Positions 28,661 through 30,463 of a stretch of DNA of 64,000 nucleotides are shown here, in pieces (the stretch's first letter is position 1; each line of letters opens with the position of its first letter). Source of the DNA: Candidatus Phaeomarinobacter ectocarpi (lineage in GTDB: Bacteria; Pseudomonadota; Alphaproteobacteria; CGMCC-115125); the NCBI RefSeq assembly GCF_000689395.1, contig NZ_HG966617.1, positions 1,892,677 through 1,956,676 of the forward strand, written 5' to 3'. A program made the translations under genes and the position numbers. The notes under the pieces were generated by a model. It did not search any database, had not been told where the DNA came from, and was given only the letters and a program-made list of their open reading frames with translations.

Positions 28661-28707
28661 TGCGGTCTGCCGGACTTGAACCGGCATGGACGTTACCGTC
28701 CAAGGGA
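28661..28707 (-). repeat. tRNA-Leu 3'-end fragment, outer direct repeat (copy A)
   Basis: A 47-base segment matching 29269-29315 with two mismatches. Read on the minus strand it covers the variable arm (GGACGGTAACGTCC), T arm (GCCGGTTCAAGTCCGGC) and the start of the acceptor. It lacks the CCA-proximal end and the anticodon arm. The stop codon of the P-loop gene lies inside it. Confidence 0.85.
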
Positions 28708-29244
28708 CCTCTTGGCTGCTTCTTTCAAAATCTCGTCGACCACGGCCTCGAGCGGCGCAGTGGCATCAATCACGATTGCATTGTTGGGCATGTCTTCTTC
28801 TGTCCGGTGTAACCGCGCAACCAGTTCTTTTTCTTCTGGTCGTCCCCCGAAATCAGTTGGGTCTATTGCCACGCGCTCATCAAGTCGTCGATGTATCGTT
28901 TCGATGTCATCGACTTTGAGAACAAACACCCCGTCGAGCAGATCAATAAAGTGATCGGAGTTTCTGCAGCCGCCACAAAAGAAAGAAACCGGGAAACTGT
29001 GATCAGCGATCACGGACCGAACCTTGTCCGCATCCCACACTAGATGCGTGTGCTGCCAGCTCACTTTGTCTTTGGCACTCGCGTGAGCAGGTTCTTCCAA
29101 CGGCTCGCCGGTCTTGGGGTCACCGCGGTATTTCAACTCCCGGTCACCGTGCAGAACGTGATACCCGCGCCTCTGCAACTCTTCAGCTACGGTCGTCTTG
29201 CCGGTCCCCGACACCCCTTCGATCAAAAAGTTTCTAAGACCCAT
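28693..29244 (-). CDS. P-loop nucleotide kinase-like protein between tRNA-derived repeats
   Basis: 183 residues from ATG 29244. Walker A GVSGTGKTT at 10-18, then a small alpha/beta kinase layout with DGVFVLKVDDIETIHRRLDER in the lid/R-rich region and FGGRPEEKE. It resembles small AAA/adenylate-kinase-like or shikimate-kinase-like NTPases; substrate unknown. Its last four codons (S-L-G-R) and stop fall inside the tRNA-Leu fragment at 28661, and its start lies 22 bases after the second fragment, so the gene exactly fills a 608-bp unit bounded by direct repeats. Base composition is lower in GC than the chromosome. Confidence 0.75.
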   Translation of the reverse strand: MGLRNFLIEGVSGTGKTTVAEELQRRGYHVLHGDRELKYRGDPKTGEPLEEPAHASAKDKVSWQHTHLVWDADKVRSVIADHSFPVSFFCGGCRNSDHFIDLLDGVFVLKVDDIETIHRRLDERVAIDPTDFGGRPEEKELVARLHRTEEDMPNNAIVIDATAPLEAVVDEILKEAAKRSLGR

Positions 29245-29265
29245 TTCGACACCGCTGGAAGGTAT

Positions 29266-29328
29266 TGGTGCGGGCTGCCGGACTTGAACCGGCATGGACG
29301 TTACCGTCCGAGGGATTTTAAGTCCCTT
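29266..29328 (-). pseudogene. 3' part of split tRNA-Leu(UAA), with attachment core
   Basis: Read on the minus strand: anticodon arm AAGGGACTTAAAATCCC, variable arm, T arm GCCGGTTCAAGTCCGGC, acceptor AGCCCGC, discriminator A and CCA. The D arm and 5' acceptor are absent; upstream of the core the sequence is unrelated to tRNA. Its acceptor AGCCCGC pairs perfectly with GCGGGCT of the 5' part at 30421-30463. Confidence 0.88.
29312..29328 (-). other. Attachment-site core, left copy
   Basis: Seventeen bases AAGGGACTTAAAATCCC (minus strand), identical to 30421-30437. It is the anticodon stem-loop of tRNA-Leu(UAA), a common crossover site of tyrosine integrases. An imperfect third copy (GGGATTTTGATCCCC) is at 29417-29431. 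Confidence 0.75.
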
Positions 29329-29465
29329 CTCGCCCAATAAAATCAACGACTTACACGGAAACATGCCACCCAAATTGCATCTTCCAGCAACAAGCGCCGC
29401 AACATATCCTACACGAGGGATTTTGATCCCCGAAGATCACCACACTCGCCAAATCAAGCAGCAAC

Positions 29466-30047
29466 TCAGCCGTCGGACAGAAGGATCCTCTCCAAGATAG
29501 CTAGAAGTCGCTGACCGATCTCCGCTATCTCCAAGTAACTTTCTTCAGTGATGCTGGAAACACCCCCATTTGGGTCCGAGTTGTTCGGGTCCACGTATAG
29601 GGCTTGGAGTTTCAGTTCGGTGAATTTCCCACTACTTAGATAGTGAGAGATTTCGACACCCGTCTGAAAAACATCAGTTTCCGCGACAGCGGCTACCATT
29701 CTGGAACCTGCTTCTTCAGTCCACTGAGGATTTTCCTCCAGCCACTTCAGTAGCGATGCCGGAATTTCATCCACGGGTTTTACTGTCAAACCGATTTCAC
29801 CGGAGATTGACTCCAGTCCCTGGACAAAGCCATCAGCCCAAATAACGCTAGCCGCAGTCCGGTGCTTCTCGTGGTGACTAAAGACGCCCTTCGTCTCATT
29901 CCAACGAAACATCAATGCCTTTGCAGCTTCTTCGACGGCGATCACCGCAAGCGCACTAGCAGAGCCATAGCTTCCCACATCACCAAGCATTTTGGCGTCA
30001 TTGAGAAGCTTTTCACTGTTGGTTTTTGCCGCCAAGACGTTGGGCAT
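29466..30047 (-). CDS. AbiV-like abortive-infection family protein
   Basis: 193 residues. The N-terminal part has NSEKLLNDAKML, then YGSASALAVIAVEEAAKALMF and SHHEKHRTA, which is the AbiV/HEPN-like helical pattern (A-x-EE-x-x-KA, then a His/Lys pair). AbiV of Lactococcus blocks phage translation by binding a phage protein; a defence role here is inferred from the family. The ATG lies only 13 bases after the CCA end of the intact tRNA-Leu, with no good ribosome site, so the mRNA may be released by tRNA 3' processing. Lower GC than the neighbours, inside the split-tRNA insert. Confidence 0.68.
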   Translation of the reverse strand: MPNVLAAKTNSEKLLNDAKMLGDVGSYGSASALAVIAVEEAAKALMFRWNETKGVFSHHEKHRTAASVIWADGFVQGLESISGEIGLTVKPVDEIPASLLKWLEENPQWTEEAGSRMVAAVAETDVFQTGVEISHYLSSGKFTELKLQALYVDPNNSDPNGGVSSITEESYLEIAEIGQRLLAILERILLSDG

Positions 30048-30060
30048 CTAGTACTTCATA

Positions 30061-30146
30061 TGGTGCGGGCGGCGGGACTTGAACCCGCACGTCCATAGGA
30101 CCGGAGATTTTAAGTCTCGTGCGTATACCAATTTCGCCACGCCCGC
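30061..30146 (-). tRNA. tRNA-Leu(UAA), intact copy inside the insert
   Basis: 86 bases with encoded CCA. Acceptor GCGGGCG / CGCCCGC, D arm AAATTGGTATA, anticodon loop CTTAAAA (anticodon UAA), variable arm with GTCC/GGAC stem, T arm GCGGGTTCAAGTCCCGC. The 27:43 pair of the anticodon stem appears to be C-C, a weakness. Its sequence differs at many positions from the split native tRNA-Leu beside it, so it is not a local duplicate. Confidence 0.93.
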
Positions 30147-30420
30147 ACTGAGGCACTTATAGCCACTTCGACTAACAAGGCCACGATTCGGCAACACTTG
30201 CCGCAACAATCTCCGAAAACGGCGCTCTATCTACCCGCCGGTGAATAGATTTCCGAAAGACTTTGTTGCTGCCGCAACAATTTTTGGCTCTATGCCAGCA
30301 ACATCATCCTCACGAGCGGGTATATTTACCCACGATTTCAATGGCTTGCATTTTTCAGCACATTCTAACCAGCGCTGTAAGTTGCTGATTTTCAGTGCCG
30401 GGGACACAGGGGATTTTGCG
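30147..30420. other. Gene-free interior of the insert
   Basis: About 270 AT-richer bases. The motif GCCGCAACA occurs twice here (near 30199 and 30272) and again at 29388-29396 as CGCCGCAACA, on both sides of the AbiV unit. Two direct copies of GGGGATTTT stand at 30409-30417 and 30420-30428, and GACACAGGGG (30403-30412) is inverted against CCCTTGTGTC (30434-30443). These may be arm- and core-type recombinase sites. No integrase gene is present. Confidence 0.5.
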
Positions 30421-30463
30421 GGGATTTTAAGTCCCTTGTGTCTACCAATTCCACCAAGCCCGC
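30421..30463 (-). pseudogene. 5' part of split tRNA-Leu(UAA), with attachment core
   Basis: Read on the minus strand from 30463: acceptor GCGGGCT, D arm AATTGGTAGA, then the anticodon arm ending in the core AAGGGACTTAAAATCCC. After the core the tRNA sequence stops (GCAAAATCCCC follows). Joined at the core with 29311-29266 it gives a complete, fully paired tRNA-Leu(UAA) of 89 bases with CCA. Confidence 0.88.

Follow-up and report, generated by a model that had tools for sequence, protein, structure and literature searches.

A 1.1-kb integrase-less insert splits tRNA-Leu(UAA) in Candidatus Phaeomarinobacter ectocarpi and carries a replacement tRNA and a predicted defence gene

Most genomic islands that target tRNA genes rebuild the target tRNA. 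The principle of breaking the target and supplying a substitute is already published as tRNA-dependent lysogeny, including for an alphaproteobacterial prophage. In the actinobacteriophage systems, a core of 8–17 bp lies within the host tRNA gene, the host tRNA is not rebuilt and the element carries a replacement of the same isotype (Guerrero-Bustamante and Hatfull 2024, PMC10865867). Sinorhizobium meliloti prophages resembling phage Lo5R7ANS disrupt the central part of tRNA-Leu(UAG) and supply a dissimilar tRNA with the same anticodon (PMC11476347). Here, we analyzed a related arrangement in Candidatus Phaeomarinobacter ectocarpi (G000; single contig, 3,415,905 bases, 100% complete). The window, that is, the entire 64,000-nt stretch of contig NZ_HG966617.1 under study, contains a native tRNA-Leu(UAA) gene split by an insert of 1,092 bp (29329–30420, minus strand; 1,109 bp including one core copy), which encodes its own tRNA-Leu(UAA) and an AbiV-family protein. 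The best relatives of the RadC protein encoded in the window point to Alphaproteobacteria as the class. The locus shares with the actinobacteriophage systems a short core, a target that is not rebuilt, an element-borne replacement tRNA and the lack of a detected redundant host copy; with the Sinorhizobium prophages, it shares a centrally broken alphaproteobacterial tRNA-Leu gene and a same-anticodon substitute. However, the actinobacterial elements are complete temperate phages that encode an integrase, whereas the present insert spans 1.1 kb, lacks integrase and phage genes, resides in Alphaproteobacteria and carries a HEPN gene beside the tRNA. The Sinorhizobium case differs in concerning another tRNA and a whole prophage, with no minimal cassette described there.

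The initial annotation had proposed that the native gene is broken into two halves sharing a 17-base core, and this was borne out. On the minus strand, the native 5′ half (30463–30421) is followed by the insert (30420–29329), the 3′ half (29328–29266), a kinase gene (29244–28693) and, not noted in the initial annotation, another 3′ half in a decayed state (28707–28661). The core, AAGGGACTTAAAATCCC, corresponds to the anticodon arm and is common to both halves, ending the 5′ half (30421–30437) and starting the 3′ half (29312–29328), so that it flanks the insert as a direct repeat. Joined at the core, the halves form a tRNA-Leu(taa) of 89 nt, recognized as such by ARAGORN, with a perfect GCGGGCT/AGCCCGC acceptor stem and an encoded CCA; the earlier claim that they rebuild a complete tRNA thus holds. 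For comparison, we used genomes of three sister species from the same genus (G001, G002 and G003); in these as in G000, one and the same thioesterase gene precedes the locus. An intact gene at this locus in G002 matches the 5′ half at 43 of 43, the 3′ half at 63 of 63 and the joined tRNA at 89 of 89 positions, and the joined flanks are colinear with G002 (365/408 aligned bases identical, far beyond chance). Because of this identity and colinearity, we take G002 as the empty site. The same split was not found as an ancestral state, G001 and G003 being split by different inserts. With an empty site and two perfectly conserved halves, an interpretation of the halves as plain dead tRNA fragments was ruled out. 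ARAGORN detected no tRNA at either insert junction in the window; a short core lies inside the host tRNA and the target is not rebuilt.

Within the insert, ARAGORN identified a complete tRNA-Leu(UAA) at 30061–30146 (minus strand, native orientation; Rfam 56.5 bits against a 29-bit cut-off). It is 79% identical to the native gene, in keeping with the initial description of a clearly different tRNA, and 90% identical to the tRNA in the G001 insert, and its anticodon stem reads GAGA/TCTC compared to GGGA/TCCC in the native gene. A search for the canonical Leu-UAA pattern across the G000 genome returned the split 3′ half and the insert tRNA as the only plausible tRNAs. Pattern and DNA searches revealed no other contiguous tRNA-Leu(UAA) in the 3.416-Mb genome, although an aberrant gene could escape a pattern-based search. 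A hidden, intron-split copy is unlikely, since no group I intron (RF00028) was detected anywhere in G000. An Rfam tRNA scan alone reported 38 tRNAs with several expected ones missing and was not used for the count. The insert copy is, therefore, the only intact tRNA-Leu(UAA) found, and with an intact locus in G002 and no second intact gene in G000, the data support the earlier suggestion that a foreign tRNA of the same anticodon stands in for the broken one. UUA codons require tRNA-Leu(UAA). Loss of the insert by any route other than exact excision would, thus, probably be lethal, because its tRNA is the only UUA decoder found.

The only open reading frame (ORF) of note in the insert (29466–30047, minus strand) encodes a 193-aa protein matching the AbiV HEPN profile (PF18728, E = 2.6e-13, 50.8 bits against a cut-off of 27.1; PADLOC AbiV, E = 9e-9), which makes it a predicted antiviral defence protein. 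Searches of 384 other genomes of the class, of plasmids and of viral contigs returned no relative, and a single-sequence AlphaFold model (mean predicted local distance difference test score of 47) was too poor for a fold search and adds no support. Since its start codon lies ~13 nt past the CCA of the replacement tRNA, placement of both genes on one transcript is plausible. Inspection of ORFs and Pfam matches revealed no phage structural, packaging or regulatory genes in the insert and neither an integrase ORF nor an integrase remnant. Three integrase-family genes were detected in G000, all of them far from the insert. Lacking an integrase of its own, the insert must either be moved from elsewhere or have lost its mobility. 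A degenerate core copy, CGAGGGATTTTGATCCCC (plus strand, 29414–29431), inside the insert is perhaps a decayed attachment site.

Insertion at this locus has occurred repeatedly. In G001, the insert that splits the same site measures 1.2 kb and encodes its own tRNA-Leu(UAA) and a DUF4145/PD-T7-4-like protein, with no integrase trace. The gene order is identical to that in G000 but the cargo differs: AbiV and the DUF4145 protein are unrelated by BLAST, while both belong to the HEPN superfamily, consisting mostly of RNase toxins (PMC3710099). Despite the exchanged cargo, the ends are conserved, with alignment scores of 65 for the 90 nt of 3′ non-coding sequence (shuffles 20.6 ± 7.0, maximum 47) and 132 for the 5′ non-coding part (shuffles 58.9 ± 10.1, maximum 102). 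Both inserts contain paired TGTTGCNGC...TGTTGC repeats whose distance from the core matches within one base. In G000, these TTGTTGCGGC repeats are represented by TTGTTGCGGCAAGTGTTGC on the 5′ side (30191–30209, minus strand), with a counterpart in G001, and by TGTTGCGGCGCTTGTTGC (29387–29404, minus strand), with a core distance nearly equal to that in G001; a palindrome, TTGTTGCTGCCGCAACAA (30263–30280), contains the same motif in both orientations. By their resemblance to known sites, these repeats may represent arm-type integrase sites. A search of about 85,000 GTDB genomes with an arm-plus-core pattern yielded 18 matches, and IMG/VR yielded four; none lay beside a tRNA 3′ half and all were treated as chance hits. 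A pattern of upstream arms plus tRNA, applied to 385 genomes, recovered G001 and other matches, with a gap setting too narrow to include G000.

The third insert, in G003, is of a different type. Here, the splitting element encodes a 393-aa tyrosine integrase, without a match among phage records, and its replacement tRNA-Leu(UAA) contains a group I intron (RF00028 at E = 5e-9, a match that falls short of the curated cut-off); the native 3′ half is on a different contig from the 5′ side. The three inserts (G000, G001 and G003) are independent and each carries its own replacement tRNA-Leu(UAA). Integrases of the G003 type with an adjoining intron-bearing tRNA-Leu(UAA) also occur in G012, G103, G118 and G384, members of four other alphaproteobacterial families. 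The host 5′ half lies upstream of the integrase in G103 and G384, so that a split-and-replace layout with an integrase is present in G003, G103 and G384. These three share with the G000 insert the anticodon-loop target, and the replacement tRNA has native orientation in the cases read. By contrast, all five modules are larger, encode an integrase, have a group I intron in the replacement tRNA and, where read, contain TTACACA-type repeats, a motif that differs from the repeats of G000 and G001. The readable junctions have in common a sequence centered on the anticodon loop, CTTAAAA, as would fit crossover by a tyrosine integrase at this position. In the integrase-adjacent replacement tRNAs, the intron follows the first anticodon base (L074, 460–788; L162, 1418–1733; L164, 1399–1766; L172, 1476–1795; L178, 1476–1789), where it may shield the gene from an integrase that cuts the anticodon loop. 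In both integrase-less inserts, the anticodon stem of the replacement tRNA differs from the native one, and this change could afford similar protection.

Several additional loci were observed in the course of these comparisons. In G142 (L185, 3563–18803), a 15.2-kb island lies between tRNA-Leu(UAA) halves, with an intron-interrupted tRNA-Leu copy just inside, near its start. G010 (L076, 3250–4200) contains two tandem tRNA-Leu(UAA) 3′ halves ~0.9 kb apart, one of them after TTACACA-type repeats, as another stacked insertion site. Relatives of the G003 integrase adjoin tRNA-Met(CAT) genes in L087, L089–L092 and L095, in the last case on both sides of the integrase, and possibly reflect the same strategy on another tRNA. 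Upstream of an integrase in L084 (2800–2875, minus strand), a tRNA-like sequence looks chimeric, its 5′ part resembling Leu(UAA) but a long variable arm being absent.

We consider it probable that the G000 insert is a minimal non-autonomous cassette that is mobilized in trans and kept through an indispensable tRNA. In this view, the chromosomal tRNA-Leu(UAA) gene would have been cut at its anticodon-loop core when a tyrosine integrase, acting in trans, recombined the insert into that site. The target would not be rebuilt; its role would pass to the tRNA-Leu(UAA) of the insert, which has the same orientation and lies downstream of whichever promoter the native gene uses. This promoter could drive both the replacement tRNA and the cargo, because the orientation is the same and the sole terminator-like site on the transcribed strand lies downstream of the whole array. 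One putative HEPN-superfamily defence gene lies close behind the tRNA. Because this tRNA is the only UUA decoder found, any loss of the insert other than by exact excision would kill the cell, and the cargo would be stabilized without a toxin-antitoxin pair. Several points weigh against this interpretation. The search for an integrase whose arm sites match those of the insert, as mobilization in trans would require, found none, and integrase-less inserts of the G000/G001 type comprise two examples from one genus. For the insert tRNA, no promoter matching the consensus was detected. UUA is rare, at about 3 of 3,000 codons in sampled window genes, with one gene that had been counted out of frame excluded, and the fitness cost of losing the insert tRNA is, given this rarity, one that we infer. 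Lastly, neither native half shows decay, a state equally compatible with a recent insertion and with continuing excision.

The most serious competing explanation, although in our view an unlikely one, is that a larger element with an integrase and tRNA-dependent integration died and left the insert behind, internal deletion having spared only the selected tRNA and a passenger gene. At this locus in G003, and elsewhere, integrase-bearing elements do bring a replacement tRNA-Leu(UAA), just two minimal examples are known, and non-autonomous elements are generally derived by deletion (PMC11389934). However, the ends and layout are conserved between G000 and G001 around unrelated cargo, neither insert retains integrase traces, and the repeat motif is other than the TTACACA of G003-type elements.

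More speculatively, the cargo protein might be functionally paired with the replacement tRNA. On phage infection, the HEPN protein would act on the anticodon arm of the native-type tRNA-Leu(UAA), and the replacement, with its differing anticodon stem in both inserts, would serve as a resistant or regulating partner. We regard this pairing as improbable. If true, the cassette would be a tRNA-anchored defence unit that removes a sensitive tRNA and supplies an immune one.

It is very unlikely that the insert is an ordinary tRNA-targeted island whose tRNA, rebuilt from the phage attachment site (attP), was later lost, leaving the insert tRNA as an incidental passenger. tRNAs are often carried by phages and islands, and a neighboring insertion did rebuild the tRNA in the conventional manner. 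This neighbor, element 1 (28661–29328), is, as judged from its sequence, an older single-gene insertion that rebuilt the 3′ half now adjoining the insert (copy A) and displaced the original one (copy B). Its cargo is the AAA-type kinase gene (Pfam AAA_18, E = 2.2e-7), the product of which is 88% identical in G002, and it contains no integrase. Element 1 is common to G000 and G002, where copy B is present in a further decayed state, but is not located beside the tRNA in G001 or G003. At the insert itself, by contrast, the intact core of the 5′ half runs directly into the insert with no trace of a 3′ half, the 3′ half persists undecayed beyond it, and all three independent inserts at the locus carry the same isoacceptor. 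Least credible of all is expression of the native halves and their joining as RNA, through a split tRNA or an intron-like insert, which would keep the native tRNA functional: perfect conservation of both halves and the occurrence of group I introns in tRNA-Leu(UAA) of this class would agree with it, but splicing would have to remove one copy of the 17-base direct repeat, the insert encodes its own tRNA and protein, and an intron or trans-splicing origin was ruled out for lack of an RF00028 match in the region or genome.

As a trans-mobilized cassette, the insert would resemble miniature inverted-repeat transposable elements (MITEs), arrays of clusters of attC sites lacking integron-integrases (CALIN) and minimal phage satellites in being small and helper dependent, with conserved ends or interchangeable cargo (PMC11389934). 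Reliance on a replaced essential host tRNA is, in contrast, not described for these in the available part of that source. We found no integrase-less, single-gene version of tRNA-dependent integration in the open-access literature, and the minimal form with a swappable, single-gene HEPN cargo looks new. It suggests a very small form of selfish stabilization, consisting of one essential tRNA and one defence gene moved by the integrase of another element. If this holds, lone defence genes can both spread and reach fixation by holding a tRNA hostage, without a toxin-antitoxin pair or conjugation machinery. The findings would carry tRNA-dependent integration beyond phages, to an element of non-phage type and to several families of Alphaproteobacteria. 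They also offer a testable explanation for the group I introns in integrase-adjacent tRNA-Leu(UAA) genes, by which the replacement tRNA would be hidden from an integrase that cuts the anticodon loop.
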